Positions 6,101 to 62,001 of a DNA stretch of 64,000 bases are shown in pieces. The position numbers and the translations under genes are program-made. Below the pieces are notes generated by a model. The model worked only from the letters and a program-made list of their open reading frames with translations. It did not search any database and was not told the DNA's origin. The stretch's first letter is position 1. Each line of letters starts with the position of its first letter. Source of the stretch: Nereocystis luetkeana (taxonomy: Eukaryota > Sar > Phaeophyceae > Laminariales > Laminariaceae); the NCBI GenBank assembly GCA_031213475.1, contig JARUPZ010000002.1:4349049-4413048 (forward strand), in the 5' to 3' direction.

Positions 6101-9100
6101 AGGACCTAAAGGGAGTTTGTAATTGTGATGGCGCTTTTTTTCGTCGATCGAAGCAGTGACACCAGCTGACGATCCCGTTCGTATCGCGTCCTTGGTTTTG
6201 TCATCCAGGAGCACGCGCCCGCCGCTGGCATCAAGACCGACGCTCCCGTTGTGGGTCTGGTTCTCCAGAAGAGCCACATCAACACCAAAGACGAGTGCCA
6301 CTATGTTGCTCTCGTCGCCGAGCTCGAGGCCCGCGGTGCCAAGGTACGCCTTTTGAGGGAGCGCGCTGAGAATACCCGTGCAACTGATTTTGTTTGAGCT
6401 CGTCCTGGTCAACCTTTCGAGCGTTTTTCGCTGCGCTTTTGTACTATGGGGAAGAGGACGGTTGGGATCGGGGAGTACTCGACTCGAACGAGTTTTGTTT
6501 TTTATTTTTTATTTTTTAGGGGGTTCTGTTGTGTTCCTCGTCTCGTCCTTCCCTGTCTTTCCATGTCTACTATTGTGTGTTCAAGAGGTGCAGTAGCGGT
6601 TCAGTCTTTGTCTATGGTGGTATTGCTCGCCGGGCGTTTGTCGTGAGCTGTTCGTCGTCACCCTGCCGTGGCTGCTGTTGCCCGGTCCAAGCTTTTTTTT
6701 CACGTTCGTACGTATGTGTCCCTAATGGTTCGTTCTCTCTAACCCCCCCCCCCCCCTCTGCCCACCCCAATCACACACCGCGAATGCCAACGCCATCGGC
6801 AACGCCAGGTGATCACCCTCTACACGGGCGGGCTGGACTTCTCCGGGCCCGTGGAGGAGTACTTCATCTCCGGCGGCAAATCCATCGTGGACACCTGCAT
6901 CAACCTCACAGGCTTTGCCCTCGTCGGTGGTCCTGCCAGCCAGGCAAGAGACTTACTTGCTACTGCACTACTCTGCATCGCTGCCCTCTGATACGTCCAA
7001 GTGCTACATACTTCTGAAAAGTTTGGTGTTGGCGTTGGGGGGCGGTGGTGTGGCTGCGGTTGTGCTGGCGTTGTTGGTGTAGCTGATGTCGATGTTGGGA
7101 TTTGTATCGATGCCGTCGAAGTGGTGATGCTGATTTAGTAGTTCTTTACCGTTGGTGTTCGTCGATTGCTGTTGTGGGTTTGTCGCGTTCGGCGGTTATA
7201 ATGGGCAGAATGACGAGTCTCGTTACGTTACCTGTACTCTTATTTTAAACTGTTGATGTTGACATGGAACAAGCGAAGCCACCCTGTGTGGGGGTATGGT
7301 GTACATACAGTAATTGTTTTCGAGCGTTACAGCCCTTTTCGCACATGAGCAAAGGAAACCACCGAGCGTGGTGTTATGTACAGATGGTGTTTGTTTTCGA
7401 GCGTTACAATGTGTATCGCGAAACGATGGACCGTTATCCTCATACGCGTATCCCCCGGCCCCGCTGCGCACACCCGCCTCTACCTCACGTCGAAAACCCT
7501 CATCCCATCCATACAACCAAAACCTTCGTCTTGCTGACCGAGAAGCGCCACCCCTCATCCGCTGTGCTGGAACGTCTGTTTTCGCGAGCAGGACCACGCC
7601 AAGGCGGTGTCTACCCTGGAAAAGTTGAACGTGCCGTACCTGTGCACGGTGCCGCTCGTCTTCCAGTCCTTCGAGGAGTGGCAGGCGTCCGAGCTGGGTC
7701 TTCACCCCATCCAAGTCGCTCTCCAGGTATACATACATATATAGATGCACGATGTATACTGCTTTGGTCTCTTGACGCCTCGTAGCTGCACCCTCTTGTT
7801 TGGTCATTGTTGTGGTTGAGCGTGGAAGCGTGACCGCCCCGCTGCGATAAACACGCCAACATCATACATACCCATACCCCGCGCCCCCCCCCACACCTCC
7901 GCTCTTGTCGTGGCTTCTGTGCCCGCCTGTGCCCCTGTCCGTGCCCGTGCCCGCCTCAATCGCGCTTCAGGTGTCCCTCCCTGAGATCGACGGCGCCATG
8001 GAGCCGATCATTTACGCGGGTCGCGAGGGCGCCACTGGGCGCTCCGTCCCCCTTGCTGACCGTGTGCAGCTTGTCGCTGACCGGGCCCTTAAGGTGGGGT
8101 TGATGTTTCAAGTCGAACTGACTTGATTGAAAAAAAGAAAAAAACGCGTGGTCGCGTAGGTGATGGAGAGGCGTTTGTTTTTGCCTTTCAAGACAAAGTA
8201 GTAGGAATGTTTCTATATAAGTGTGGATGTTTGATATTTGCAAGCAAAAATTGGCGGGTTCGCGTAGTGGTAAAGATGCGTTCTTGTTGTGCCGGGAAGA
8301 CAAAACTAGGGACAGCACGGTCGGCATTGAAGCGTTTTGTGTGTGTTTTCTGTAATACGTGATCGAGAGTGAAAACACGTGGCGTACTTCTCTACAAAAT
8401 AATTACCTGGTACACTACTGTATCTGAATGCTGACGAAATGTTTACGAGACACACTTCCACCCTATACTCGTATACACATGAACCCCACTTCATGGTGCA
8501 CGCAAGGGGAAGCCTTACCCTGAATCTTGACACCTCCCAATGCACGTCGGCGATGTCCCGTCCTCTTTTTTGTGCCTCGCGAACCTAACCTCAGTGGGCC
8601 ACGCTTCGGTCGAAAAAGAACAAGGACAAGAACCTGGCGGTGACGATCTTCAGTTTCCCCCCGGACAAGGGTAACGTCGGTACCGCCGCCTACCTCGACG
8701 TGTTCGGCTCCATCCACACGGTGCTCTCCAAGCTCGGGAAGGAGGTGGGAGGCGGTGTCCGCTCATTTCTTGAAAACCCACACAACGCGCGGTCAAAAAA
8801 TTCACACAAAAGCTTTGCAAATATGGGTTTTGAGTATTTTTTCGATCTCACGGGTTCGTCTTTTTTTTTCTTCTATTTTTTTTTCCCCCTTACAATAGTG
8901 TTTTTGTGTAAAGGTTACAAAGGGATACGCCACTTTGTCGACCATTTCATTCAGGCTCTCGTGTCCCCGGCGTGTTTGGTGCATTCAGATGATGACGTCC
9001 CACGAGGCATTGCGATCGTCGGTCGTAAGTGTTGGTTTTTCGGGCCCACGCTGAACGAAGACTGACGTACGCGGACCGACGTAATACGGGGAGAGGGAAA

Positions 9101-9665
9101 CGGGAGAGAAAAACTACAGAGCGTGTTGTCCTCTCAGTTTCGACCGCTTGGTATCGGAATCGAAATGCTGCTCTTGTCTATACTTGGGTATGCATGCAAC
9201 CATTTAGGTGCTCTCTTGTGTCTCGTTGCGCTTACGTGCCTCGCCGGTGGTTTTGTTTTGCGGGAGTGTCCGTGACCGCCTCCTCCCGACACTTTTCCGT
9301 CTTTTAAAAACATAGTTTTTTTCCTCGTGTGTGTGTGTGTTTTTTTCGTTTTTGGCGGCAGGGCTACGACGTGGGAGACCTGCCCGAAAACCCCAGAGAT
9401 TTGATGGAGAGGATCCTCAACGACCCGGAAGCCAGGTGACCATTATTAGCATGGTAGTTGTAGTACCTGGTACTGTAGTAGTAGTAGTAGTAGGTAGTAG
9501 CAGCGGTAGTAGTAGTAAGTAGTAGTAGTAGTAGTAGTGGTAGTAGTAGTAGTGGTAGTAGTAGTAGTGGTAGTAGTAGTAGTAGTAAGTAGTAGTAAGT
9601 AGTAGTAGTAGTAGTAGTAGTAGTACTAATAGTAGTAGTAGTAGTAGTAGGAGTAGTAGTACTAA

Positions 9666-9713
<48 letters not shown>

Positions 9714-12408
9714 GAGTAGTAGTACTAATAGTAGTAGTAGTAGTTGTGAGGCCCCGGGTTGACGGATTATAAGCTTGAACACCGACGGCGTTTTCCCTCC
9801 GAGCTTCGGCTAGAAGTTGGTACGGGAGATGGCTCATCGAACATGCGTCGCGTGGTCGCCTGTCACAAGCCTTGGTGTGCACAGTAGATCATAGGGTGGC
9901 GATCACGCACCACGCACGCCCCCCTTGCCCACCCGCTGAGTTTTGCCCTACCCCCCCCCCCCCATGCGCGGGTCACCCCTGTCTTTTCCTCGCTTTCGCT
10001 GTGTTGTCTTCCACGACCCACCGACCCGCTGTTGCTGCTGTTCCCTCCTTCTGCCTTATCGTGATCTTCGTTGACCTTCGACAGGATCGACTCCCCCGAG
10101 ATGAACGTGCAGTACCGCATGTCCGTCCAGGAGTACGAGGAGCTGACGCCTTACGCCGGCGACCTCGTCGAGAACTGGGGCAAGGCACCCGGGCACCTCA
10201 ACTCGGACGGCCAGAACCTTCTGGTCTTCGGCGCGAAGTTCGGCAACGTCTTCATCGGCGTCCAGCCCACCTTCGGATACGAGGTGATGAAAAACGAGAG
10301 TCTTGTCTTGTCGTGTTGGTGTGACAACACTTCCTGATCGCTCAATGATACAAACATCGGCACAAAAAAATGGTTCCCCAATTCCCTGTAAATGTTATTT
10401 ACATGTTTTGATTAGAAACATACTGGTACTGTACAGTAACTTTCCCAATCAGCTCTAGGCGTGTCACGCGGTTTCGGTCCATGAAGATTACCATCCACTT
10501 GGGCTCCAAGTAATTGCGGATGATTATTTCGGTGGTGACTTGTGCTGATACTGTTATTTTTTTTCGCTTGGTAATCCCCTCTTTTTCTTGTTTTCCAGGG
10601 CGACCCGATGCGTCTCCTGTTTTCCAAGTCGGCGTCCCCTCACCACGGCTTCGCGGCGTACTACACTTACCTCGAGAAGATCTTCAAGGCCGACGCCGTC
10701 CTCCACTTCGGGACTCACGGTTCGCTCGAGTTCATGCCCGGAAAACAGGTGAGCGTTTTACTATCTCACCTTCGAGAAGTGGTTTCCGGTTTTGGCTGCA
10801 GGTGGAGGCAAAGCACCCTTCGCGTCGTCACGGGCTGTTCCCGTTAGAGAGCTGTGTTGCGCATTCGCACGGAGAAGGTCTGCAGCACACTACAGCGCGA
10901 CGTGATGAGAGCGCTATCACCACACCGAGAGAGCAGTAAATGTTTTGTCTTGCAGGTTTTCGAAGCCGAACAGACCTGGCGAGCGTTACACCACGTGTAA
11001 TGTGTGTGTGTGTTTTTTCCTACTGCAAATATCATGCCGCTATTTCTCGAGCCACGTAGTGTTCCCCCCCCCGAAAAACAAAACGAAACATAGGTTAGCA
11101 TCTCTGAAGCGGTCAAGTTTCGCGGTGGTCAGACTCCCTCCACCTCTGCCGCCACCATGTCGTCCTTGTGCACTGCTGTGCATGACTTTTTCTTGTGCTT
11201 TTGGGTGTGTTGATTTGTTTTTTGCAGGTGGGCATGTCTGGGGCGTGCTACCCGGACAGGCTGATCAACTCTATCCCCAACCTCTACTACTACGCGGCGA
11301 ACAACCCGTCGGAGGCCACGATCGCCAAGCGCCGCTCCTACGCCGCCACGATCTCGTACCTCACGCCCCCCGCCGAGAACGCGGGTCTCTACAAGGTATG
11401 TTGGGATGTCGATTTACACATGTATAGTGCTTTCGTGCGGTGACGGTGTGTTTTTTTTTGTGGGTGGGCGTCGGGGGGGGAGGGGGGTGAAAGGGAGTCG
11501 TATCACTTTTCCGAGCGTTTCCGGAACACTCAGTTTGGTCTTTTGTCATGTTTTCGTGTGTGATTTTTTTCTTTCCACGAAGGGGACCGAGCAATAGCTT
11601 GGTAACATGTCGTTTGTTTTGATGGGTTTGCAGCTAGAAGGCGTTACGGTTTCAGGCTTGAATGCTTATTTCTTTTTATATAGTCTTTTGTCGTGGATGG
11701 TTTCTGCGCTACCACGCAGGCACTCTTTGCGGTGGAACTTGATTAATACTATTTTCCCGCTGACCGCGTTCATCTATCTATATCTACCTCTGGCACTGCT
11801 TTGCCCAACAACGTCCCTCCACACCCCTAAAAACGCCGGCATCGCGACTCGCAGGGACTCAAGGAGCTGGGAGAGCTGGTGGCGTCGTACCAGGGCCTCC
11901 GCGACAACGGAGCCCGCGGACCCTCGATCGTGAGCGCTTCGATCGCGTGCGCTCGAACGTGCAACCTGGACAAGGACATCTTGGACCTGCCCGGTGACGA
12001 CGTGGACTGCAAGACCATGACCATCGATGTAAGGCCCGACGCCGCGGTGGCCCGGAGCCGGAATGGTAGCGCACTGTACGCTGTCACCCGGCTGTCCATA
12101 ACGCCTCCTCGTATTGGTTTAAAGTTGTAGATGGGGAGGAGCGGTTGTGACCGAAAGCTCTATTTATTACAGGGCGGCCTGAGGAACGGCGCAGGGTTTC
12201 TAACGATGAACGTTTTTTGTCGGATGTTTTGGAGACGTAACACAGATTTTGGAACATTCCGAACCCTCACCTCTGGAATTATAAATGGCGCTCCTTTTTT
12301 TGCCTGTAAGTGTGTACCATGACTTTCAGGTGTCTGCTTGCGTAATTTCCATGGCTTTCTGAGGAAGAATAGGAAGAAGGCGTGCCCGAGAGTCGCTTGC
12401 GTCCTCCT

Positions 12409-12448
<40 letters not shown>

Positions 12449-13166
12449 CCGGTATTTATTTATGTATTTTTTCGTACTTGGTACGCCTGTAGCCGACTTG
12501 GGAGACGGTTTCCCCCTGGCGTTAACATAGTTTACAGTATTACGGGGGACCATAATTAATAGGACCAAATATTGTTTGTAAAAATGGTTAAATATACCTG
12601 GTACCAGGTATAGGTTTTTATGTTTACCATAGGTCCTACCAGGTATTAACTATGGTCCCCCGTAATAGTCTCCAGCTTTTATTTATCGCTCATCGCCCGT
12701 TTTTTTCTTCCTTTTTCCTACTATTGTAGGTGTTTTTTCACGAACTTATGGTTTCTTATCATCGTTTTTTTGTTGTCTCATCCTGTTTTTTTTCCCGTGT
12801 GTTTTTGTCGTCCGCTCAACCAACTCTCTCGTCTTCCTCTTGTTTGTTGATTCTGTTCCTCCAGGAGCGAGACACGGTGATCGGCAAGATTTACCGCCGT
12901 CTGATGGAGATCGAGTCCCGCCTCCTCCCCTGCGGGCTGCACACGGTCGGCGTGCCCCCCACCGCCTCGGAGGCGATCGCCACTCTTGTCAACATCGCGT
13001 CGCTCGACCGACCCGAGGACGGGATCAAGGCCCTGCCCCGCATCGCGGCCGAGTCGGTGGGACGCGAAATCGGAGAGGTGTACGTCAGCGCCGACAAGGG
13101 TAACCTCGAGGACGTGCAGCTGCTGCAGCAGGTGAGGCGTGGTTGGGGGGGGGGGGCTTGGGTTGG

Positions 13167-16100: not shown

Positions 16101-18615
16101 CGCGACCTTTTCATCAACCAGATGAACCTGCTTGACCGTGGAGTGAGTTTGTAAATGTTTTTTTTTTTCTTTTTTCTTCTGCGCTCGTTCACCCTGTTGT
16201 CGAGCTTGCCGCGTGCCCTGTGGGTGGTGAGGGGATGCTTGAGTTATGTTCGTCAAAGAAACATTGCATGAAGCAGCCTACAGGCTTTTATTTATGTCCA
16301 CTATTCCCGCAATTTTGTTTTGACACTTTTTTTTTTTTCTTCTTTTGTCGAGAGCGTACGGTAAGTAGCGTACGCTTTGCTTATGCACTCCCTCTGCTGT
16401 ATGTCTCCACCTCTCGCGACCTCGACGTAAAAGTTGTCCCACCATTCGCAAGAACACAAGAAAAAGCAAACGAAGGAATAAAAGCCAAGGAATCAAGCTA
16501 CAAAAAAAACAAGAAAACTTGAATATATATATCCCACCCTCCTTGCCTTCGCCTAGGCTGACGCTGAAACAGTTTTCGCGCCCGGTGGGTGTAATATCCC
16601 GAACTAACTACCGCCAAAACTCCGACTACTTTTTTTTCTTCGCGATTCAATAGATCAAGATGGCCGCTGAGGCAGACGAGCCGGAAGACAAGAACTTCGT
16701 CCGCAAGCACGCCGTGGAGCAGGCCAAGGAGTTCGGCCTCTCCGTGCGCGACGCCGCCACCCGCGTGTTCTCGAACGCCGCGGGGTCGTACTCGGCCAAC
16801 GTTGGCCTGGCTATCGAGAACGGTGGCTGGGAGGGGGAGGAGCAGCTGCAGCAGCAGTTCGTCAGCCGTAAGGGCTTCGCCTTCAACGCCGACAAGCCCG
16901 GCATGATGGAGCAGCAGGTGGAGAACGACGCGTCGCGTTTACTTTAGTCACTGATGTAGGCGTTGGGTGCACGCACATGTTGGTAACTTTTGTTTTTTTT
17001 TGTTTCGGGTTTGTTGCCTTCGTTTTTTGTGTTGGGTGTAGTCGGTGTTCACACGCTTCTCCTCCACCTCCCCTATTGTGAGCGAAACCGCTGGGAACAC
17101 GTGACGTAAGCTTTGAAGGACGAGACCAAGCAGAGACGTGGGATGACGTTTGCTAGCTACCAGGGTAGTGCTTCGTTTTACGTTGTGCGGTCGACCTGCT
17201 TTGGCACGAGCAAAATATCCCCCCCCCCCCCCCCCCACACACACACATTGGAGCTGTCATCCATATGCAAGTCCGCCACACAAGCGGTTCTTGGTAGGAT
17301 GCAGCTCACCCTTCATGTGACTCGCCGGACACCTCACGGCGCTTCGCGCTTGGTGTAAGCAATGTCTGCCTGGTCGGTGAAACCTCGACATGCTCCGTCC
17401 CGGCATTGTAGGGATGCGGGGGTCTTATGGTCCTACGACTAAGGCCATGCATGAGATCGAGTACATGAGCTCTCCTATCGAGTACAACCTCTCTCCCCCC
17501 CCCCCCACCACAGGTGTACATAGACGATGCCGACACTCCATGGAGCAGAAAAAATCACACGTGTGTTGGGTGACTTTTTTGCTTGTTTCCCGCTCTCGTT
17601 TGTCCTGTTTGTTTATTTCACGTCTCCCACGAAAAAACCACAGGTGGACAAGTTCACGATGGCGTTGAAGACGGTGGACGTGACCTTCCAGAACCTCGAC
17701 TCCTCCGAGATCTCCCTGACCGACGTCAGCCACTACTACGACTCCGACCCGACCAAGGTGGTCTCCAGCCTCCGCGACGACAAGAAGAAGCCTGCTTCCT
17801 TCATGGCCGACACCACCACCGCTAACGCTCAGGTGCGTGCCTTGCCTCGTGTGTGCTTGGCCGTGTGGCTTGCTACGCGCCTCGCCTTGCGTTGGAGTGC
17901 TTTTCGCTCTGGAAGGCCCTTGCCTTGACTTGGCTTGTCGTGCCTCGCCACGCCACGCCTTGCCATGGCTTTGACTCGACTTGATGTTGTTTCGGAGCCT
18001 CTTCGGGCGGGCGACTTTGCGCGTTTTGTTTTTGGCTGACACGGTTCCTCCAATGCGTGTAAAAGCAGGAGGATGTGGCCGTTGCCGACCCTTTCGTCTT
18101 TTCTTTTTGCTTGAAACCGCGTGATGACAACAGCGAAATACTTACGGTAGTTGACTCGGGGCACATTTTGCGGGTTGCACATGTGCTTCCGTGTGTGTCT
18201 CTTAACACCGTACGTGTAGCCTCTCGTTGATTTGTGCCCTCTAATTTCTGATTTCAACGGGGCCCTTGCATTTATTGCATACGCTGGTGCCACGGCGTGG
18301 TTTGTGCTTCATCTAGAACTATTTACTGGGGACCATAGTTAATAGGACCTACCTGGTATGGTATACATGAAAACCTACATTTTTCACCTTTTTTTACAAC
18401 AATATTTGGTCCTATTTACTATGGTTCCCCTTAGTATTAAGACCACTGTATTTTGTTGCTGACTACCACGTACCTATTCGCAGCCTTCCGGGTGGAGTCT
18501 GAGCTTGAGTTTCGCCGCCACGGGCACGTTTCTTGTTTTCTGCCACTCAAAATAGCTGTTAGTCGGCTACCGCGTCAATATGGTATATATTAATAGAAAA
18601 GGTACGCCGTAACTC

Positions 18616-20207: not shown

Positions 20208-23175
20208 GCGACGGCCATTTTTTACCCTTGGGCCGGGCGAAGGGTAGACATGTAGACACCATACCCTACAGCCCGCTTTGTCGACTAGTGGATTTTTTTT
20301 AGCACGCGCCAGCCAGGTTCCTAGCGCACACGGGTCGTGGAAGAGCGAGAGGGAGGGAGAGACGGCGGAGGATTTTTGAGAAACCTTTTGATTTTTGAGA
20401 AACCTTTTGGTGCGGATAGTAAAATGCTGGTGGTTTGGGGGGGTCGGTGAGTGGGGGGAGCTTGGGAGTTCGAGCGCTCGAAGAGCGTGCGCGCGCCACG
20501 GCTCCTTCTCTCCGGCGCGAGCAGCAGGCGTGTTTTGTGGTCCGTTGTTGGGCCTCCCCGCCCATTAGAGTAGAAGAGAGGCGGCAAAAGAGAGCGTTAT
20601 AAGTAGAATTGTCGCCTCAGAATGGGGGAACGGTTCAGTAGGCGGTGGTCCGCTCCGCATCATGTGCAAACGTGCGGCGCGGGACAAGCAGGCCATGTTG
20701 GGCACCCAGCGCGCGCTGACAACCTTCGGGGGAGGGTTTCCCTGTGCGGAGAGGGAGCGTGGGGTGGCAGGGGAGGGGGAGGGGCGGAAGAACGAAAGGA
20801 AGAAATTAACCTAACAATCGGGGGAGGAGGAGGGGGAGCAAACACAGTGGAAAATATGTGGCCGGGAAGGATACGAGGCCGACGCCGGCCGGCAACCACT
20901 TTGTTTTTGTCGGCCCAGAAGCGTTAGCCTCGGCGGCGCTTTTTCAGGCGCGTGCCGTATTGTTTGGCGCCGTAGTTTTTTGTTGTTGTGTGTGCTGTTT
21001 TTGATGTTTGATCAACTCTTTTATCTGTCTTGTTTTTACGATTTTTTCGATAAAAAGCCGTCGCGCGAGATCGAAGTTTCTGTGTCGTCCGAAATTGGCG
21101 GGAGGGGGGGGGGGGGGGGGGGGGGGGGGGAGGAGGGGGGAGAAGACGGGGGCACTTTCATCGGCTAGGAGAGGGGAAGCGGAAGGATGGGATGGGAGGG
21201 AGGGGGGGAGAGATGTGGGAAGGGGTTTTGAGGAGATGACGGCCATACCACATGGAATTTGAAACAATATACTGCACCTTATAATTTCTTGAGGCACTCG
21301 CATAGAAGATGGCATGGCGATTTCCGCGACGAGTCGTGATGAGTACAAAGCCGACAGTTTATTTTATTTTCGCATTTTATTCAACTTGGCCAAATAGCCC
21401 AGGGGATTGTTTTCTTCTCATGTATCAAAACACCCTATGAGTTGCTTGGTGTCCGGGGGATCTTCAATAAATCCTCAATACCAGGTAGATCAATCAAGAA
21501 GCTGCAGCGCACATAAAAATACTTAATACATGCATGCATGCGCTCAACGCAGCAGGGAGCGTCCAGGGGGGGGTAGTCACGCTCGAGTGCCCGACAGCCC
21601 TGGCTGTGGGAAACCGTGAACCTTTCCAAGGCGCCGATTAATATGTGAATCGTCGCAGCGTCCGCCCAACCTCCTCGTGTTTACTCGGACATCGACGCCT
21701 AGTGTTCCATCGCGCTATTTCTGTGCCGAAACGGTGGCCTCCGCTCCGTACATATTTAGATATGATATGAGGGGGTAGGGGGTGATTCGTTCACTCGATC
21801 GAGTCCGTGGTGGATGTAACAGATTGTTTCAAACCAAAAAAGGTGACCAAGAACCCACAGAGGCATTCAAGGTTTACCGTATCCATTTTGTTGGTCTGGG
21901 CATTATAATACCGTGTACATAGCGTGACGAAAAATCAACCGAGGACACACAAGCAACATTACAACAGCCCAGTCAGGCATCATGAGCACAGCGAATCACA
22001 TCGGCGACCTCAGTTAACAGGCACCGGCGGGTAGGTCATTGCGATGCGAGACCATGACTCGCATATATTTTGAGATCGGGAGCCGGCGTGAGTGCCATAC
22101 TCTTCCAACGATAAAAATAAGGGCGGTAGGTAAAACTCCGGTGAAGATGTGCTCATGTTTTCTCTCGCAAAATACAGGACAGGAGGGAATCACATTTCAA
22201 TGCAAAAAAACAGCGGCCACCCGCTACGCTCACAAAAAAAAGCGGAGTTATTTTCATCAATAGTTACGACAGTCTAAAATGACCACACTCGAAATGTACA
22301 ATCCGATACACACATCTCCTGGTTTGGATCTGTCCCACTGTTTGTTGTTGTACGCGGATCCTGCAAAATAATCTCTCACTCGTAAGGCTGGTGAGGAACT
22401 GCAGCAGACAGATAGATGCGTCACTGGAGTACATAGATAGATCATGATGTGTCCGATGTGTGCAATCGTCTGAACGGGAAATATAATATGTACCTTGTAT
22501 GTAATACTATCACGAATTATGCTCGCCTTCCGACAGTAAAGCGTAGATGCCATTCCACGTATCATTTCATCTTAGCTACGTATATATCCTATTCCTCATC
22601 AACATTCCACATCCCCACAGGTCATCATGCAGTATGCAGGCCAGAGTGTTTCGATGCTGCAGCATGATGAGTAGCTGTTGAAACTACCGGTATTATATAT
22701 AAATAGTTGCTGCTGCATACGGCGGTAGTAAGTAGGACCAGGTGTCAAGGAGAGAGGTCCTTCGACCCGCGGAGGGTCTGTCTGCTCTATGATAATATAA
22801 GAGTGTGGAGGTGCAGCTGTAAGACTTATATAGTTTATTGTACTGCTGTGTGTAGTGCGAGTATTAATATGTAGAATCATCAGCATGCATGCGCGCGTAT
22901 ATCGTTAACTCGTTGCAGCAGCATCACCATCACCATCATCACGGTATTTTTGTTTGTTGTATACTCACTCGTAGTAGTAATAGTTCTCAGACACAAAACC
23001 TTTCATAAGTGAAAGCCAGCAGCCCATGATGATTCGTTGGGCCGCAGCGGTGCTGTGCTACTACTGCAGTACACGTAGAGTATACCGGTGCATTTTTGAA
23101 AGTACGTACATCTGATAGGCTGATCCTCGTATTATCTGGACGACATGAAAAAAAAAACAAAAAAAAACAAAAAGT
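20208..23175. other. CHLH 3' flank and gene-poor DNA
   Basis: The first several hundred bases after the CHLH stop are presumably 3' UTR; no poly(A) signal is obvious. A purine-rich stretch contains a (G)27 run near 21104-21130. The rest holds no reading frame that looks coding. There is one TACCAGGTA at 21479 and one TATTAATA at 22864. I see no gene here. Confidence 0.5.
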
Positions 23176-23247: not shown

Positions 23248-25005
23248 ATTTGCACTGCATTGGTTGAAATATGTTTTCTACTAAATAAAACTTTACGTTT
23301 ATTTTTGTTTTGGCGTGGGCCTGATCTTCGTTCACATCGCGCATACATGCAGGTATTAATAGCAGGTATAGAGTAAAAAGTGTGTGGTGCAGGTGCTGGT
23401 GCTGGCTCTAGAGTAGGTAGTTCCGGTACCTGTATAGTGGTATTGCATCGTAGTACATACCTGGTACTCTCTATGGATCTCTGGCTTTCTGCAGTAGTAG
23501 TTAGTTAGGTATCCACACATCACATGCGACTGCTGTTTGATGGTGTAGTTTATAGCTCGAATTGTGGCGGTATCGTCTTGAAAGGAGCTTACGTGACGAT
23601 AATACCATGGCGGCAGTGCATACACGATGAGGAGACGCGGTGTACCGGCGTCGGCATGCATGCATGCATGCATGTAGATACCGATATACTTGCTTACCGT
23701 AAAGTAGGTACCAGAAACGTACAGTAAGCATCACAATGTGGCGCGTTGTTTTTCCCTCATCATCCTTTCTTGAGTTCCTGTCTGTCTGGTACCTGGTATG
23801 GCACTGCAAGCACCCGCAGCAAGCGGAAGTAGCAGTGGCACGAGTAGTTAGTTGCTGGGTGCGCAAGGAAGGAGCCGCCGTTACGATCGGCCACGTTGTG
23901 CTCTGCAAGGTATTGACCTACGAATCCATTTTTTTGTCGTTTGGTCGTTTTGTCGTGATGGTTATACGTTTTGTCGTTATCGTTCACAACTGCATGCGGT
24001 TCATACAGTGTTGACGGTACTGCACTGGTATACTGTACCAGGTACCAGGTAGTATAGTTATAGTAGTATTGTGGTTGCCATCCGACAATGTGTAGTGCTG
24101 TTCTATAAAATACTAAGGAACATAAAGCGAAGAGCTCTCCAGAACGAAAGCGCGGCAGTATCATACGACGAATCACAACCGATGTGACGGACATACATGA
24201 TATCATCGTTCGTCTTACTTTGTTACGTACGTACAAGGAGAGGCAGTACATCATGTAGAACAGCAGTAGTAGCAGTTTTAAAGTGTAGCAGTTGCTGTCA
24301 TTGTGGCCAGCTGCATACAATTATCGTTACGTGGTATACTGCTGCTGTACCTGGCAGGTATTATCGTAACCATCGTACTACTTGCTGATGTACTGTATGT
24401 AAACTTCACATACATGCCATTATGCATGTAAAGTTCACTTGATTAACACCGGGCGCCCCCACTCTACGAAAAAGGAGAGAGATAATTGAAGGTCGAAATA
24501 TAATAAATGGAAGGAGAAGATACGAAAACACCCGAACACATACACGAAAACAGAGCTTGCCAGGCGAGTACCAGAGGTGACCCGCGTCCATACACACCAG
24601 AGAGGGAGAAGTGTATTGTAGTATTGTTGGAGCGTTCTTAGTAAAAAAAAACACACACACACACAACAATTGGTTTGCTTTCTAAAAAAAAACGTCCGTT
24701 CTCATTTTTGGCTTCGTTCCCATTTTTCCGATTTATCTGTACAAAAAAAGTGTAATCATAGCAGGTACTGCTGCTGTTGTTCTAGTAGCTGGTACACACA
24801 CGCACACTATAAGCGTAGCGGATCGCTTTCAAAAGGGATGGAGGACTACAAGCGGGGGGTCACGGGCGAGGGCAGTGTACGCCCCCCGCTTGCGTTTTGC
24901 CGATCGATGCAGGAAAGTACAAAGAAAGCCAGAAATGCTGAGAAAAAGAAAAACATATATTCGAGGGGGTGAAATGTGGCGGTAAAACCCACACTACTAC
25001 TACTA
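23248..25005. other. Gene-poor DNA rich in short GT/TA palindromes
   Basis: No gene seen. It contains five TACCWGGTA motifs (23458, 23790, 24036 and 24043 in tandem, plus degenerate forms), a GCAT microsatellite at about 23655-23674, and one TATTAATA at 23353. Confidence 0.5.
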
Positions 25006-25117
25006 TATTACGGGGGGCCATAGTTAATAGGACCAAATACTGTTAGTAAAAATAGGTAAATATGTAGTTTTTTGTGTGTACCGTAGGTCCTATTTACTAC
25101 GATGGTCCCCCGCAATA
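25006..25117. mobile_element. TA-type MITE (family A) copy 3
   Basis: 112 bp, TA-TTACGGGGGGCCATAGTT ... GATGGTCCCCCGCAA-TA. The interior matches ggaccaaatactgttagtaa of its relatives. No CCWGG insertion. A TATTAATA motif follows directly at 25127. Confidence 0.9.
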
Positions 25118-25276
25118 CTATTAATACTACTACTACTGTAGCGACACTGATGTACGTACCTTGTACCTTCAAAGTTGTCGCCCTGGTTCCCCGGGTATTG
25201 AAACGAAGCGGTTAGGTCCACGTACGACCGGATACGCTACCGTTACGCCCCAAATACCTCACCGTTCAGAGGGGGG

Positions 25277-25800
25277 TGTACTCGATAGGAGAGACGTACT
25301 CGATATTATACATGGCCGTAGTCGTATGGCCATATAGACCCTCGCATCCTTACAATGCCAGGACGGATCAAGTCGGGTTTTCACTGACCAGGCAGACATT
25401 GATCGAACCAAGCGCGAAGCGCCGCGAGGTGTTGTGGGCGAATCGCATGAAGAGTGAGCTGTATCCTGCTGCGAACCGCTTGTGAGACGGATTTTTCTTG
25501 CATGCATGTGGATGACAGCGTCAATATATCGGTGGTTCAATTTCTGGTGTGGCCAGCTCCAGAGACAGCAATGAGTTTACTATGTACTGCCTCGTGGGTG
25601 TCTTACCATGTACGCACTACGTAATACGATCATCCCCGTTGTGCGGATGGAAGGTTCTCCCTGCACAAAAATGATCTAACTCGACTGCGAGCCGTGGTGA
25701 CCAAACAAAAAAACAAAAAAAAACAGTACCCTGGCTGTCTGGCTCACGTAGTGAGAGGCGTGTTTTACAGCGTCGTCGCCAACCGACGCCAACCCAAGCT
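25277..25800 (-). repeat. Dispersed repeat C, near full length, inverted
   Basis: Reverse-oriented copy. It begins at its 3' end (gtactcgataggagagacgt after a G run) and ends at its 5' end (cgacgccaaccc). It contains the hallmarks ggatgcagctcaccc, ccgtcctggcattgtaagga and cttccagagacagc-type sequence in complement. With the copy starting at 25904 it forms a large head-to-head inverted repeat. Confidence 0.8.
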
Positions 25801-25903
25801 ATATACACCAGGTATATAATAGAGGGGGGGGGGGCTCACATGGATTAATTACCCTGGGCTGGGTAATCGATCGATTTCCCCCCCTACCCCTATTTTATAT
25901 GGG

Positions 25904-26599
25904 TTGGGTTGGCGTCGGTTGGCAACGACACTGTAAAACATGCCGCTCACTACGGGAGCTAGACAACCAGGGTACCGTTTTTTTTTTTCTTCTTTTTCTT
26001 TTGGCGGCCACTCACAGCTGGTGGTCGAGTTAGATTAGTTGTGCGAGATAAAGAACCTTTACTCCGCACAAGGGAATTGATCGTATCACGTACCAGGTAG
26101 TGTTCAAGGTAAGCCACCCAAGAGGCAGTTACATAGTACTCCCGTCGCTGTCTCTGGAAGTGGCTACACCGTAAATTGAATAACTCATTGCAGCTGTCAT
26201 CCATTTGCAAGTCCGCCTCACAGACGGTTCTTAGTAGGATGCAGCTCACCCTCCATGCGACTCGCCGGACACCTCACGGCGCTTCGCGCGTGGTGCAAGC
26301 AATGTCTGCCTGGTCAGTGAAAACCCGACATGCTCCGTCCCGGCATTGTAGGGATGCGAGGGTCTATGGTTCTCCCTCGTCCAGTTTCCTCTGCCCCGCC
26401 CCATCCCGTCTCACATGCCCGTTATTTATTGAAAACGACAGACCTACCCCTTACCCTGACGGGCAACCTCACCAGCCCAGAAACACCTAGACCCCCCCAC
26501 CCCCGACATGCTCCGTCCCGGCATTGTAGGGATGCGAGGGTCTATGGCCATACGACTACGGCCATGCATGAGACCGAGTACATCTCTCCTATCGAGTAC
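25904..26599 (+). repeat. Dispersed repeat C, near full length, with internal insert
   Basis: Starts ttgggttggcgtcggttgg and runs through agctagacaaccagggta, tactccgcacaaggga, aagaggcagttacat, ggatgcagctcaccctccat and catgcatgagaccgagta to a (C)26 tail at 26601-26626. A 43-bp segment (cgacatgctccgtcccggca...) occurs twice, at 26328 and 26505, around 133 bp of foreign DNA. A CCAGG+TA micro-insertion lies at 26089-26097. No protein-coding capacity was seen. Confidence 0.8.
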
Positions 26600-26626
26600 A
26601 CCCCCCCCCCCCCCCCCCCCCCCCCC

Positions 26627-27956
26627 GCGCGCGCCCCAGATCAGTAGTAGTAGGCAGCGAACCTTCACAAGGCCTAGCCAAAGCACAGCAGATCAATTAT
26701 CCGGAAAGAGCATCAGGGAAGCAACAGGCCAAACATACCTCCTATATACGAAAGGCCTACAACATCTATCCCAACCCATCGGTAAAGAAAGAGGCGGGGA
26801 ACACTTCGAAAACCAGGTGACCAAAAGAGGTGGTAGGGGAGAGGTCAAAAGAGGTCAGTATCGCTGAGCACGTGCATTGGTCGCATCTTGGTCCGCTCTG
26901 ATAAGAGTAAAACATGGAAACATGAAAAAAAAAAAAAGTACGCACGAATACCGAAACAGAGGCTGAAAGCTCATCCCTTGAGGAAGAAAAAAACGGAAAA
27001 AGAGCAAAATACGTACCTGGTACATTTTTTTTTTTTCAACGTTTCGGCCTAACACAGGAGGTGCATTTTTGAAGCGGGAACCGAAGTAAAAAGTGCGGCT
27101 CGTAGACGTCGCCGCGGCCCATCCATCCAGCGAAAGCACCCTAAGGATAGAGGCGTGACATGCGTGTATCTGTCATCCCGGACTTGGAGGCGTTCTACGA
27201 TAGAGGCTCACCCTATTTTTTCTGAGGCTCCTCATCACGTAAGGAGAGCTCCATACCTCACCCGAAAACTGTCTTCAGCAAAACTCAATTGGCATCCCGA
27301 TTAATAAGCCCATGGCCCAGGCACACAAAATGTCATTTTTTTAAACAAGATTGGCATTCTGACGGGTTTGGGTTAAGGAGCCCCGTCATCCAGCAAAACA
27401 ATTGGCGGAATTGTGCTACCTCTATCGTAGAACGAGTTACTGACCGATGCAGGACATACATGTTACAAGGCGCGGGGGGGTAATTTTTAACTTTCCGGAA
27501 ACGCGAACTAATTGCGGCGGGGGCCATTTTCCCATATTTCAGGAGGTTGCAGCGCAAATGCCCATTGAATGGAATCGCCAAAAATTCGCCAAGCGCGCGG
27601 AGGTCATCCGCTTGGTTGTGCCGTTAGTCGGAGGTATCCCGGCTCCTGGAGAGGCGACCGCGTGCCTCGCAGGCGTAGCTATATGGACAACTTATTCCAG
27701 CATATACAGACAACGCCCTCCACGGTGAGAAAGTAGCAGTCGATTTCGTGTCGATCTCGTCTCCACGTCGGTGAGTCGGCTCTGTCGACTGGACGCTTTC
27801 GTGATGCACGGCGCTTTCTACGAGCAGCCAAGGCCTGGGGATGAACCTGAGGACGACCCTGGGGAGGATCAGCCTGGTATATTCTGTACAGTAGTGACGA
27901 ACGGCAATCCGGCGCGCACGGCTCACACCGCGCTCCTGCCCGACGACGTTCTGCAC
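26627..27956. other. Unassigned DNA, no confident gene
   Basis: Short open frames occur (for example plus strand 27800-27977, acidic, PEDDPGEDQPG), but none has splice context or recognisable homology. One TACCTGGTA at 27014. These could be remnants of an unidentified mobile element. Confidence 0.4.
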
Positions 27957-28067
27957 TATTACGGGGGACCATATTAAATAGGACAATCGGTACACACAAA
28001 AAAACCCTACATATTTCGCTATTTTTAATAGCATATTTGGTCCTATTTACTATAGTCCCCCATAATA
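27957..28067. mobile_element. TA-type MITE (family A) copy 4
   Basis: 111 bp, TA-TTACGGGGGACCATATTAA ... TATAGTCCCCCATAA-TA; the interior is more diverged (gtacacacaaaaaaacccta). Confidence 0.85.
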
Positions 28068-28085
28068 GTGAAGGGGCGGGCCACC

Positions 28086-28430: not shown

Positions 28431-28539
28431 TATTACGGGGGGCCATAGTTAACAGGACCTATGGTATACATAAAAACCTATATGTTTAACCATTTTTACT
28501 AACATTATTTGGTCCTGTTAACTATGGCCCCCCGTAATA
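28431..28539. mobile_element. TA-type MITE (family A) copy 5
   Basis: 109 bp with well-preserved arms, TA-TTACGGGGGGCCATAGTTA ... TAACTATGGCCCCCCGTAA-TA. It is in the reverse orientation relative to copy 1 and serves as the insertion-free reference for copy 2. Confidence 0.9.
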
Positions 28540-29950: not shown

Positions 29951-30144
29951 CAATACCTGGTACGAAACAAGCAGAGCAGGCTCGTCATCCACCCACGCCA
30001 CACGTCTTCTTCAAAACGGCTTATCAATCGAAAAAAGGAAGATAAATACATAAAATGAAAATCACAGGGAATCAGCGCAAGAAAGAAAAAAAAACAAAAG
30101 AAAAGAAGAGAACACAAAGGAAGACCACGTTCGAACCAGCTGCA

Positions 30145-31157
30145 CCAGTTGGTGGCACTAGTAGTATAGTTCATGGTCTACTTCTTAGTCGGCCTGGTGC
30201 CTTGCTACCCTGTCTGCCATTTCCTTCCTACTTTCGTCCACCACAGTTTCCCTTCTACTCCTCTCGTTCCCCCCCCTCTTCGCATTCCCTCGGTCGGGTT
30301 TTCTGCCACTCCTCCTGTTGCCCCCCCCCCATCCCGTTGGACAACACTCACGGCGGATGCGCGGCGCTGCCTACTCAGCTCAGCCTCAGCCTCGCGCCAC
30401 CTCACCACGAACCGTTCGGCTGCGCCAAGGATCCCCCGGTACCACTTCCCCGCCTTTTTTGTCGCAGTGGACCACAGCGCGGTATCAACTCCAAACACCA
30501 AGGGGGCAAGTTCCGTTGACCCTTCGGTGGCTCGGAACTCCCTCAGGTCTTCGACTATGCATCTATGCCAAGCCTTAAACTGTCCGCCTGGTCTCGGGTT
30601 GTCCCCACCAGCCATCGTCTCGAGCATTACCCGACTGGGGGATCGCTCCTTGCTCCGCCGTGCCACGACCCCCCAAAGAAGAGCCGCCGTTTACGAATGG
30701 TCGTTTCGATGCTCTCGCAACGTGTCATCTTGAGGGCCTTCGCGTACGAGAGGGTGGCATGGTCAGTACGAAGTCGGTGCCGGAAGCCAATGACTCGCAA
30801 CAGGATTTGGTGGTGAGCCGTTCGAAGCTTGGCAAAGTGTTCCGCTCTGAGGGTCCACGTCACACACCCGTACAGCAGGGTCTCGATCACCTCGGCCTTC
30901 AGCATTCGGACTTTCTGGCTAAGGGGGGCGGTCGTCCTATCATACAACTCCGGGCCGAACCGTTTGAGGCATGTTCGCATGAGACGGATCCGTCTGTCGA
31001 TTTCGAGCGAGAGGTCAGCGTTTTCGTGGATAATGCCGCCTAGGTATAAGAACTGGGCCGTCTGTCTATACCTCTGGCCTGCTGCTTCGATGACGAGTGG
31101 GTGGTGCGAGGGTTGTCTGGTCTGGTGTTTGTAGAAGTATGGTCTCTGTCTTCAGCA
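30145..31157 (-). mobile_element. 5'-truncated LINE, reverse-transcriptase C-terminal region
   Basis: The minus strand encodes the part downstream of the RT palm ([52 protein letters not shown]) and a C-terminal tail with a stop at 30205. It matches the plus-strand element at 63540-64000 at roughly 97% by eye. Homology stops abruptly at about 31157, the 5' truncation typical of target-primed reverse transcription. One base is missing in a G run at about 30673-30679, which shifts the frame between LFFGG and ARRSKERSPSR; another small indel lies near 31108. A dead copy. Confidence 0.85.
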
Positions 31158-31904: not shown

Positions 31905-32480
31905 TCGGCATCTGTTGGCAACAACGCTGTAAAACACACCAATCACTGCGTGAGCTAGACAACCGGGGTATATACCGTTTCGTTTTTGGTCGCCACCATG
32001 GCTGGCAGTAGAGTTATATAATTTTGTGCGGGGTGGAGAATCTTAACTCTGCACAATAGGGATGGTCGTGTAACGCAGTCTTAACCAGGTACCAGGTACC
32101 AGGTATATGGTAAGGTACCCACGAGGCAGTTACATGGTACACCCATTGCCGAGGCAGTGACATGCCGGTAGAGTATATCAATTGCCGAGGCAGTTACAAA
32201 GTATAGTCATTGCTGTCTCGGGAGGTGGCCAAACCACAAGACAAATTAACCATCAATATGTCGATGCTGTCCTCCACATGCCAGCAACCCCGCCTCACAA
32301 GCGGTTCTTGGTAGGATGCAGCTTACCCTCTTCATGCGACTCGCTGAACACCCCACGGGGTTTCGCGCTCGGTGCAAGCAATGCCCATCTGTTCGGGGAA
32401 AACCCGACGAGCTCCGTCCCGGCATTGTGGCGATGCGAGGGTCTGTGGTCATACGACTACGGCCACGCATGGCATGAGCA
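31905..32480 (+). repeat. Dispersed repeat C, diverged near full-length copy
   Basis: Starts ggcatctgttggcaacaacg and ends ctacggccacgcatggcat. It carries a tandem triple ACCAGGT array at 32080-32105 where other copies have a single TA, and an internal duplication of the gaggcagttaca segment (32130-32210). Confidence 0.75.
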
Positions 32481-40397: not shown

Positions 40398-43300
40398 GTC
40401 ATTATCATAATCGTCATCATCATCCTCCATACGGCCGTTCTCAATGCCATCATCACCACCACCATAATCGCCAACTTCATCCTAATCGTCATCGCCATCA
40501 ACAGCATCGTCATCAGCAGCAGCATCAGCAGCAGCATCAGCAGCAACATCAGCAGCACCAGCAGCAGCACCATCAGCAGTATCATCAGCTACGACGGCGG
40601 TGACGTACACAAAGGTACACGGCACTGCTATTGACAACCAAGCATGAACATCACCAGGGTCGTTCACGCGTCGGGTCAAACCTCGCGGGTCAGGTCGGAT
40701 TGGGTCGGGTAAGGGTGACCTGCCCCGACCCGTGATATTTCAAAACTGTCCTGGCCCGTGAAGAGCCTCGACAATGAGCACAAGCAGTGCTGCTTGTAGA
40801 ATACTGTTGTACCAGGTACGTACGTACAGGTACCATTTAGCGAATAATGCTGTGCTCGAAGGGACGCAGAAAGGCTCTGCTCCTCACGTATTTGGGAAGC
40901 ACGCTTAATGGCAAGTGAGAAGATGCAGCCGCGCAGCTGTTGTCGCTGTTGCTGTGTTGTACCGGCATGATAAGCATGTTAAGCTTCGCTTTCTCGTACA
41001 GCACACAAAAGCGGGCGGCGTTTTCTCGCGACCGCAAAAAAAACATCGTTTCCGCCGGGTATTTCATGCTTTCGGCGGCGAACAACCCGTCGCAAGCATT
41101 GGCAGCTCTCACGACATCAAGGGCAAGAAGGTTTGAAACGTAGCAGAGTTCAGCACTCACTCGAGAAAATGGTTTGGAAAAACACTAGCTGTGTACGAGA
41201 CGAAGAGACTAGTGCTAACCAATGGTTGGTCGCGTCTGGTCTGGTCGGCTTAGGGTTAGGGTTATTAAATAATAATAGTAAAGCTCGTATCGTACGCAGT
41301 GGCTCTCAACTATCGTGTTGAGCGAGTGATGAGCCCCCCTCTTGGAACGTGCCAGCAACGCAACGCAACCGGCCGAATATGCATAAGATGCCCCGATGCC
41401 CACCACGCGTTTCGACGCAGACGGGCCCACTGACCTTCCACGTCAGGCCGCCCGTGTTCACGCCCCCGGAGCCGAGGTTCCCGATGGTGCTGTCCGCTAC
41501 GGTCATGGTGCACTGATCGGTCGCTGGGTGTATAACCGAAGGAAGCGTGGCGTTGGCATCCAGCAATAAGGCGTTACGGTACAAGTCAGGAACGTTGGCA
41601 ACGCCACCGTGTGTTTCGACGTTGACTTTGCTTCTAACCTGGGGTAGAAAATACTTGCGATCCGTGGCGTGTATAAGGATTTTCCAAATAGATCGTCTCC
41701 TAAACGAAAATTAATGCATTGATTAAATCACACTAACCCAAGTAGTTTATGAACTAACTTCGCCGACCCATATCATGCCATCTCCTAACTTGCTATATAT
41801 ACGAGGTACATCAAGACGTTCAGGCATATCCTACCCCCCCCCAGCTGGAGGCGAGTACCCAGTACCTGGCAACACACATACTGACAAATAAAAAAATGAA
41901 ACAGAACAACAGCCGTCATTGATGTGAGACTCACAGCCCGAGCACGAGAGGCAGGAAATGTACCCGCGCTGGGAAGTTTCCTCGGTGTCTTTCCCGCCGT
42001 CTTTCCAGCCGAATATCTGACACACAGGACGAGTTCGTCGTGATTCAAGACGCATTGGACAGGGCAAGCAGGGGGTGAGACGAATACTTGTGAGGTCTAT
42101 ACGGGGCGCCCTTTCACGTATCGCCTTCGACCACGAAGCTTGTCTGTGCGTGGAGTGGGTGCGGGAATAGGCTGCGCACTTTGTGACCACAATGAAAAGG
42201 GTTCCCTTGGCGTAGCTCCGGGTGACGTTTCGAAGATCGGACAGGGCGATAGCGTCACCCATGTTTTTTTTTTTTTTTCGGTGACTGTTGTAGCACAACC
42301 ACCCCCGTTCGTGGGCTCTGTCGAACATCCTTCGTCGTCACGTGTGGTTGGCTGGTTCGTTTATGATAAACCTCCACCAGCTTACCGGTGCATACGTGTG
42401 TTCGACTTGGTTTGATTCGTATAGGCGTGATCAGAGATGGAACATGACCGGTCTCTTGATCGTTTTGTTAATCGTTCACTGCGGGTTGCCCGTGGCTCTA
42501 CACCCCCCCCCCCCCCCCCCCCCCCAAGTCTTTCGACTACGGCAGTGCATGACATGGAGGCAACCACCAGTCGGTGCCGAAATCCGCCTCACAAAGCGGT
42601 TCTTAGTAGGATGCAGCTCACCCTTCATGAAGCTCGTCTGACTCCCCACGGGGCTTCTCTTCGCGCTTGGTGCAAGCAATGTCTGCCTAGTCGGTGATAA
42701 CGCGACGTGCTCCGTCCCGGCATTGTAGGGACACAAGGGTCTATTCACTTTCCTTCTCTTTCTTCCCCGTTCGATGTCGACTTCGACGTCGATTTCTTTT
42801 ATCTGTCTTTTTGTGATGGGCATTTTGCTGTCTCCTCGGTTTCTGCTGCGACTCGTACAGCGTACCATATGTACGAACGTATGCTTATCTCACGTTTTTT
42901 TGGTCTGAGGTTCACGATTTGTTTCAGTTGTTACAGATGTGTACTATGTTCTGTCATACTTCCCCTTCTGCGGTAATCTCCCACTCCAGAGTTATTGGAG
43001 CATGTCTTGTGACCGCGGACTGCATCGTGGCGATGACATGATGTGAGGCGAACAATAACAATAGTCACACGACTACGGCCATGCATGACAACGAGTTCTC
43101 TTCCTCCCTCCCTCAGTCTATCGTCAAAAGTACCTGAGTGTCCTGAATGACGATGTCTCCTCCAATCCCAAGCACCCTGCTCCTCGGCGAGTTAGAAATC
43201 AGCCGAAGGCCGTCGCATTCGCCAGAGTCCTGTAGAGCGGCATCGATCGATGGGCAAGCAAGGTAACACATAACCGTTCTTTTGACATCTACACTCACAG

Positions 43301-59046: not shown

Positions 59047-59155
59047 TATTACGGGGGACCATAGTTAATAGGACCAAATATTGTTGGTAAAAATAGGGAA
59101 ATATATAGGGTTTTGTGTCTGCCGTAGGTCCTATTTAACATGGTCCCCCGTAATA
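59047..59155. mobile_element. TA-type MITE (family A) copy 7
   Basis: 109 bp, TA-TTACGGGGGACCATAGTTA ... AACATGGTCCCCCGTAA-TA; the interior aaatatatagggttttgtg has no insertion. Confidence 0.9.
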
Positions 59156-59460
59156 GTCGTCACTCAGATCCGGGGCCACGAAGCAGGCGCTTCTCCCCCC
59201 TCCCCAGCCACTCCGGGTGGGCGCCTTCGTTTTTCTCGCGATAAAAGTTGAGCACTTTCTTCTCTCGTCCCCTCGCGACGATTTTTCGCATACACACGAC
59301 AGGCGCTTTCTGCAGTCGATTTGGTTCGGAAACGAACAACCCCATGGCAGTTCGCGATACAGTACATACCGTATTAAGAGTGTGACCTTCGACTTCACTA
59401 GTTTCAAGTATAACCACTAGGCCAACGGGGCGACCCTATAACACTATAATACTATAATAC

Positions 59461-59569
59461 TATTACGGGGGACCATAGTTAACAGGACCTATGGTATATA
59501 TAAAAACCTATATGTTTAACAATTTTTACTAACAATATTTGGTCCTGTTAACTATGCCCCTACGTAATA
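59461..59569. mobile_element. TA-type MITE (family A) copy 8
   Basis: 109 bp, TA-TTACGGGGGACCATAGTTA ... AACTATGCCCCTACGTAA-TA, in the copy 5 orientation. It is preceded by a small actata repeat, showing insertion into TA-rich DNA. Confidence 0.9.
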
Positions 59570-61950: not shown

Positions 61951-62001
61951 ACGTAAATACGTAGACCGACGAAACGCCGAGAGTTCGACAGGCAGCTTTT
62001 T

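Follow-up and report, generated by a model that had tools for sequence, protein, structure and literature searches.

At positions 12865-13130 of the window, by which we mean the whole stretch of 64,000 nucleotides analyzed here, the DNA aligns over 88 residues with the Mg-chelatase subunit ChlH, a protein of 1,351 residues (PDB, E 4e-34), and within the open frame around these positions the match to the Pfam family CobN-Mg_chel is confined to that same stretch; the exon had no match in plasmids. Contig C1 has a length of 21.9 Mb, and the window would accordingly be nuclear DNA from a photosynthetic eukaryote whose genes are split. A reverse transcriptase frame (61957-63999, Pfam RVT_1) runs past the window end, the stretch 63592-64000 recurs in inverted orientation, at 95% identity, at 30692-31100, and a long interrupted TAG/GTA trinucleotide microsatellite occupies 9490-9763. 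Repeat C (25271-26606) includes 1.3 kb in which there are long inverted repeats, one scar of the kind described below and several partial copies in the window. MITE family A is represented by a forward-strand copy at 12538-12667, an inverted repeat with TA at both ends and three scars, by a reverse-strand copy at 18323-18436 with one scar, and by a reverse-strand copy at 28431-28539 that is empty at all three scar sites, as are the further copies at 25005-25117, 27957-28070, 43951-44059, 59047-59155 and 59459-59569. No stretch of this family was found in viral contigs.

The scars are copies of the motif TACCWGGTA. Single scars with the exact motif and with A or T at both -7 and +7 lie at 614-622, 630-638, 645-653, 8404-8412, 21479-21487, 23458-23466, 23790-23798, 27014-27022, 40810-40818 and 43619-43627, and single exact scars that do not have A or T at both of these positions lie at 562-570, 2203-2211, 29954-29962, 52305-52313 and 55805-55813. 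The motif at 9464-9472, which borders a TAG microsatellite, likewise does not have A or T at both positions. A tandem double scar with A or T at -7 and +7 is found at 24036-24051, and a copy of repeat C carries a tandem array at 32083-32105 that consists of an AACCAGG unit, in which the first TA is changed, followed by two exact units. The remaining scars fall within MITE family A (12595-12610, 12637-12645 and 18350-18358) and within repeat C itself (26091-26099), and are considered together with the other copies of these repeats below.

A preliminary description of this DNA, made by eye, had put the number of occurrences at about 25 where about 0.4 would be expected. The window contains 25 exact TACCWGGTA motifs against a mean of 0.25 and a maximum of 2 in 100 dinucleotide shuffles, and the computed expectations of 0.25 to 0.5 lie close to the original estimate; 22 of the 24 hand-counted coordinates were right within 2 bases, with 633 off by 3 and 29946 by 8, and the site at 32097 had been missed. 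After masking of simple repeats, CCAGG/CCTGG ranked first among 813 TA-w-TA classes in the window (25 occurrences vs 0.51). Across the genome, counted over 465,085,209 bases in 1,987 contigs (465 Mb), TACCWGGTA occurs 182,395 times against 1,744 for the reversed-pattern control, an excess of approximately 105-fold and a density of one per 2.55 kb. These counts, which are far from expectation, confirm the excess of the CCWGG motif at TA in this genome. More detailed comparisons were made in a 264-kb sample composed of the window, C1:1-100000 and C1:200001-300000, in which 110 motifs are grouped in 100 arrays. Clustering of the arrays is weak, with 10 neighbors within 100 bp vs 4.5 expected (simulation maximum 11). 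The same sample holds approximately 640 hexamer repeats of the TAACCC type, which most plausibly mark a chromosome end.

Comparison of filled and empty repeat copies identifies TACCWGGTA as the product of an insertion of CCWGG plus a second TA, with 7 bp gained. In an alignment of eight copies of MITE family A there are clean gains of 14 (2 x 7), 7 and 7 bp, each in one copy only. The copy at 12538-12667 holds the tandem double scar at 12595-12610, for which exactly 14 bp are missing in the other seven aligned copies, and a 7-bp insertion at 12637-12645; the copy at 18323-18436 holds the third insertion, also of 7 bp, at 18350-18358, and neither 7-bp insertion is present in the other seven copies. 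The inserts are thus confined to these two copies, just as had been proposed from inspection. The corresponding proposal for repeat C held in part: copies exactly 7 bp shorter at the scar at 26091-26099 do exist (six pairs are shorter by exactly 7, one by 4 and two by 5), but the inverted copy near 25615 that had been taken as the empty site has a 5-base gap.

The same pattern extends to other repeats in the 264-kb sample, where an alignable repeat copy spans 44 of the 100 arrays. At least one copy without exactly 7n bases was found at 20 of these 44 testable arrays, some of which belong to related copies of a repeat and do not count as separate events, compared with 9 of 319 control TA-N5-TA sites. 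Among the other 24 arrays, 13 had only copies that share the scar, five had such copies together with others, and six had neither; length differences other than 7n occur too, such as ten pairs of copies that differ by 4. A single TA is retained in 19 of the 20 best empty copies, these being from 20 sites chosen by a second script, 19 of them common to the first set. When indel positions in the repeat-copy alignments were sorted by length, the motif was present at 23 of 45 seven-base positions vs 12 of the 825 positions with shorter indels (1-6 bases), with the reservation that some sites are counted twice through alignment wobble and the positions are not fully independent. The view put forward in the preliminary description, that a palindrome of 5 bp is inserted at TA with duplication of the TA and can recur in tandem, agrees with both these comparisons and the genome-wide counts.

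The insertions follow a target rule of which the preliminary description made no mention. For this analysis the insert was removed by script and the flanks rejoined, leaving 83 de-duplicated sites with unrelated flanks. Of these 83 sites, 66 have A or T at -7 as well as at +7, compared with 26.9% of other TAs (p 2.7e-23), and each side alone has A or T at position 7 in 74 and 73 of the 83. With both strands summed, position -7 is A in 45% and T in 43% of these sites, position -6 is A in 46%, T is rare at -1 (6%), and positions -8 to -20 depart in no clear way from background. The rule holds in each stretch of the sample taken separately and without de-duplication (16 of 22 in the window, 27 of 32 in C1a and 36 of 46 in C1b, each vs approximately 27%). 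In the genome as a whole, where the pattern was fixed after the sample analysis, it holds for 123,968 of the 182,395 sites (68%) vs 520 of 1,744 reversed controls (30%), with about a third of the sites falling outside it. When 110 TA-w-TA classes were tested, CCAGG gave a p of 4.8e-26 (75 of 93 sites) and the next class, ATATA, a p of 8e-4 (7 of 8).

The rule is obeyed by 59 of 76 single arrays and, among these, by 33 of the 48 that have no TA 7 bp away on either side, and old neighboring scars are therefore not its whole cause. Fourteen of the 20 empty copies, and 17 of their 20 filled counterparts, have A or T at both positions, which means that the rule was there before the insert. Prior to insertion, then, most sites conform to a 16-bp palindrome, W A N5 TA N5 T W, in which T is disfavored immediately ahead of the TA. 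To our knowledge, no Tc1/mariner element has a sharp preference at exactly +/-7.

Scars also occur in tandem more often than they should by chance. Single units make up 90 of the 100 arrays in the 264-kb sample and dimers the other 10, of which three mix both orientations; if TAs were hit randomly, 1.66 tandem joins would be expected instead of the 10 observed, and in the whole genome there are 15,917 tandem dimers vs 2. The 7 bp of a scar space its two TAs seven bases apart, thereby supplying the W at -7 and the A at -6 on that side. With the target rule met on one side by their own spacing, scars would attract further scars and grow in tandem, and the +/-7 rule is thus the probable cause of the tandem excess.

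The center of the motif is mostly W, with 182,395 W-centered and 10,882 S-centered sites in the genome compared with 1,744 and 1,899 in the respective reversed controls, and apart from this W center the remnant is self-complementary. S-centered sites were considered as decayed scars and set aside, as none of the five in the 264-kb sample obeys the flank rule. Forms with one mismatch number 38 in the window vs 12 expected, and 112 in the 264-kb sample vs 110 exact motifs; in the same sample, 37 of 100 de-duplicated one-mismatch forms obey the flank rule, such that perhaps a sixth of them are decayed scars. Since so few of these forms look like decayed scars, the collection is, by this rough reckoning, mostly little decayed.

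Two other footprint-like classes are in excess, TA-CWG-TA in the window (22 vs 7.0) and TA-CGAG-TA both in the window (10 vs 2.0) and in the 264-kb sample (44 vs 12). Neither obeys the +/-7 rule (24 of 77 and 11 of 41 sites, background 27.8%), so that the rule belongs to the maker of the CCWGG scars; the excess of both classes is what other TA-targeting transposons would produce by leaving scars of their own. A 782-bp element at C1:218932-219713 (L042:8932-9713), which is a single long inverted repeat with arms 96% alike and ends TA-CTCGTACGTCCGGCAACT, is a candidate for the origin of the TA-CGAG-TA motifs in excess. Its arms bear CCWGG scars at mirrored places.

The transposon flanked by TA and ending in CCAGG/CCTGG that the preliminary description had envisaged was not recognized in the 264-kb sample, through either half-sites or general TA-bounded inverted repeats, or at three loci with DDE_1 domains. 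The search covered approximately 0.06% of the genome, a fraction that up to a few thousand donor copies could escape. Half-sites, with TACCWGG but no second TA, were compared for interiors in common, for homology that begins at the motif and for pairing as inverted ends; a repeat match begins near the motif at 7 of 96 half-sites, none of which is among the paired ends. One ambiguous inverted pair, C1:219156-219489, starts with TA-CCTGG on both sides, but its arms extend outward to the TA-CTCG ends at C1:218932-219713; we tentatively read it as two mirrored scars in that larger element and not as a donor. A 29-bp stretch at C1:28357-28385, TACCTGGCATAAATAATATAAACCAGGTA, is bounded like a tiny element (TA-CCTGG...CCAGG-TA) and could be the remnant of one, and it is the sole instance. 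A comparison of scar sites with copies that hold a longer insert there gave 288 pairings, and none was a donor among the matches listed. A profile search of the genome in which the best candidates were scored gave 28 matches to DDE_1 domains (best 3.4e-28), several of them without stops and none tied to scars. TA-CCWGG inverted repeats are absent from three of these 28 loci (L178-L180, 3.2 kb each, in which the elements are possibly truncated). Searches of the same kind gave no match to DDE_3 (PF13358) and none to Transposase_1 (PF01359), for which the controls were silent too.

The explanation that we favor, with moderate confidence, is that a TA-targeting DDE transposon (Tc1/mariner/pogo) whose ends begin CCAGG or CCTGG left the scars as footprints of its excision. 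In this mechanism, a long cut-and-paste transposon with CCAGG or CCTGG at both ends would enter at TA and later depart, leaving 5-nt overhangs that are complementary except at the middle base. End joining would unite the overhangs, and mismatch repair would then yield either CCAGG or CCTGG between two TAs. The resulting 7-bp scar would re-create the target spacing, and further scars could be added head to tail. The W center, although expected here, fits the insertion of a fixed duplex equally well and does not discriminate, because CCAGG and CCTGG are the two strands of one duplex. The Tc1/mariner-like footprint suggested in the preliminary description thus stands as the likeliest explanation, tempered by a donor that went unrecognized in 264 kb and three DDE_1 loci and by a length of 5 nt that exceeds the usual 2-4 bp. 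Further points against it are the great uniformity of the scars, the sharp preference at +/-7, the third of sites that fall outside the target rule, the 24 of 44 testable arrays with no exact empty copy, and the lack of matches to DDE_3 and, with silent controls, to Transposase_1.

Known transposon systems resemble this process to differing degrees. The ends of the mariner element Mos1 begin CCAGG, possibly similar to the first bases of the scar, and its footprints are 3 nt; it differs in that its type of transposase, Transposase_1, is unmatched in this genome, where the controls were also silent. Like the scars, Mos1 has a TA target and a preference for palindromic AT-rich sequence, and mariner/Tc1 elements are biased to bendable palindromic AT-rich targets, according to the available part of PMC5481204; such a preference is present at the scars as A/T at +/-7, A at -6 and T at +6. 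Sleeping Beauty and Frog Prince leave the excision footprint C(A/T)GTA at TA (PMC3878927, Table 1), and that of Sleeping Beauty is printed as TAG(T/A)CTA in PMC2874221. As given in the available portions of these sources, this footprint arises by staggered excision and end joining, and it is like the scar in its TA duplication and in its odd-length palindrome with an A/T center between the TAs. Unlike it, the scar has 5 nt (CCWGG) instead of 3, is present in 182,395 copies, follows an A/T rule at +/-7, and had no donor recognized in 264 kb and three DDE_1 loci. Tc1/mariner footprints in general, given as 2-4 bp in the accessible text of PMC7913693, share the TA target and the TA-flanked remnant of transposon ends; the scar, by comparison, has a length of 5 outside this range and is far more uniform as a product, with footprints elsewhere being mixed (0-4 bp for Passer and 0-3 for ZB in the parts of the sources available). 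With a length beyond the stated range, and with no donor recognized in the sequence searched, the scar works like a Tc1/mariner footprint but is not filed here as one. Sailor elements were set aside on the basis of their TATA duplications, as described in the available part of PMC8533490. A paper on Ectocarpus transposons lists Mariner-Tc1 families, and the word footprint does not appear in its main text so far as this is available (PMC12477816). No report of CCWGG scars, and no paper with a title on a motif of the TACCWGGTA type, was found in the open-access literature, which was searched mostly by title.

Three other accounts of the motif can be weighed against insertion and excision. The preliminary description had itself named the possibility of an ancestral motif, once common to the repeats and since lost by deletion from the empty copies, which we now regard as very improbable. 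Although most or all spanning copies are filled in some families (e.g., C1:61225, 92260 and 94926), C1:226582 has five filled copies to one empty, and filled copies outnumber empty ones at 2 of the 20 exact-empty sites, each insert in MITE family A is present in one of eight copies, and no other spanning copy is scarred at 14 of the 20; recurrent, exact 7- or 14-bp deletions that spare one TA, in unrelated repeats and always of the same motif, are unlikely. Equally hard to credit is an ordinary heptamer microsatellite, (TACCAGG)n, generated by replication slippage, which as the main cause is already refuted. Arrays with a 7-bp unit do exist in this genome in the form of the tandem dimers, and similar period-7 arrays of head-to-tail TACCWGG units are found in bacteria, in many lineages among the matches listed (L060-L177, prokaryote records, with several contigs from the same genome bins). 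Against slippage, single units dominate here, the mixed orientation of three of the ten dimers would require a point change, the flanks are unlike CCWGG, and a lone unit at a TA within a repeat copy is not made by slippage. The bacterial arrays, moreover, which come from loci chosen for holding the tandem motif, are where read runs of degenerate units (TACTTGG, TACCCGG, TACCAAG) with no clear +/-7 rule (46 of 121 vs a 31% background, p 0.065), and on both counts we set them aside as a separate phenomenon. An improbable but less remote account has the scar spread by insertion and retained by selection as a putative protein-binding site, in the form of a 23-bp dyad W A N5 TACCWGGTA N5 T W. The dyad symmetry about one helical turn from the center is in keeping with this, as is the apparent intactness of most copies, given that one-mismatch forms are about as numerous as exact ones and follow the flank rule weakly; on the other hand, the flank rule is already present in 14 of the 20 motif-free empty copies and so precedes insertion, and several scars are located in MITEs and other repeats.

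A competitor that we consider doubtful, though a good deal more credible than these, dispenses with the long transposon altogether. An enzyme, transposase-derived or not, would write CCWGG and the duplicated TA directly into the 16-bp palindromic target, no long element would ever have been there, and the scar itself would be the spreading unit, growing in 7-bp steps. We know of no enzyme that directly inserts such a 5-bp palindrome plus TA, and no description of such a process was found in the open-access literature, again searched mostly by title. The very uniform product speaks for direct micro-insertion, and the sheer number of copies, the exact 7-bp step, the +/-7 target rule peculiar to the CCWGG class, the self-templating tandem growth and the failure to recognize a donor in 264 kb are all in its favor. 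Weighing against it are the small fraction of the genome searched, from which a few thousand donors could have escaped, and the form of the scar, since a TA, an odd palindrome with a W center and a second TA is the known form of a transposon footprint, as seen in the available part of PMC3878927. Excision of a DDE transposon that targets TA remains our preferred origin for the scars.

Under either reading, the CCWGG scars are dense markers that could date the activity that made them and separate strains. If they are footprints, they constitute a countable record of up to approximately 180,000 transposon departures, far beyond the testimony of surviving elements, with the true number of departures being lower because the copying of repeats has multiplied some of the scars within them. 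Structural work on transposases could then take up two features for explanation, a footprint of 5 nt and a target rule symmetric at +/-7. If instead no transposon stands behind the scars, they would represent a new route by which small insertions of fixed sequence arise in genomes.
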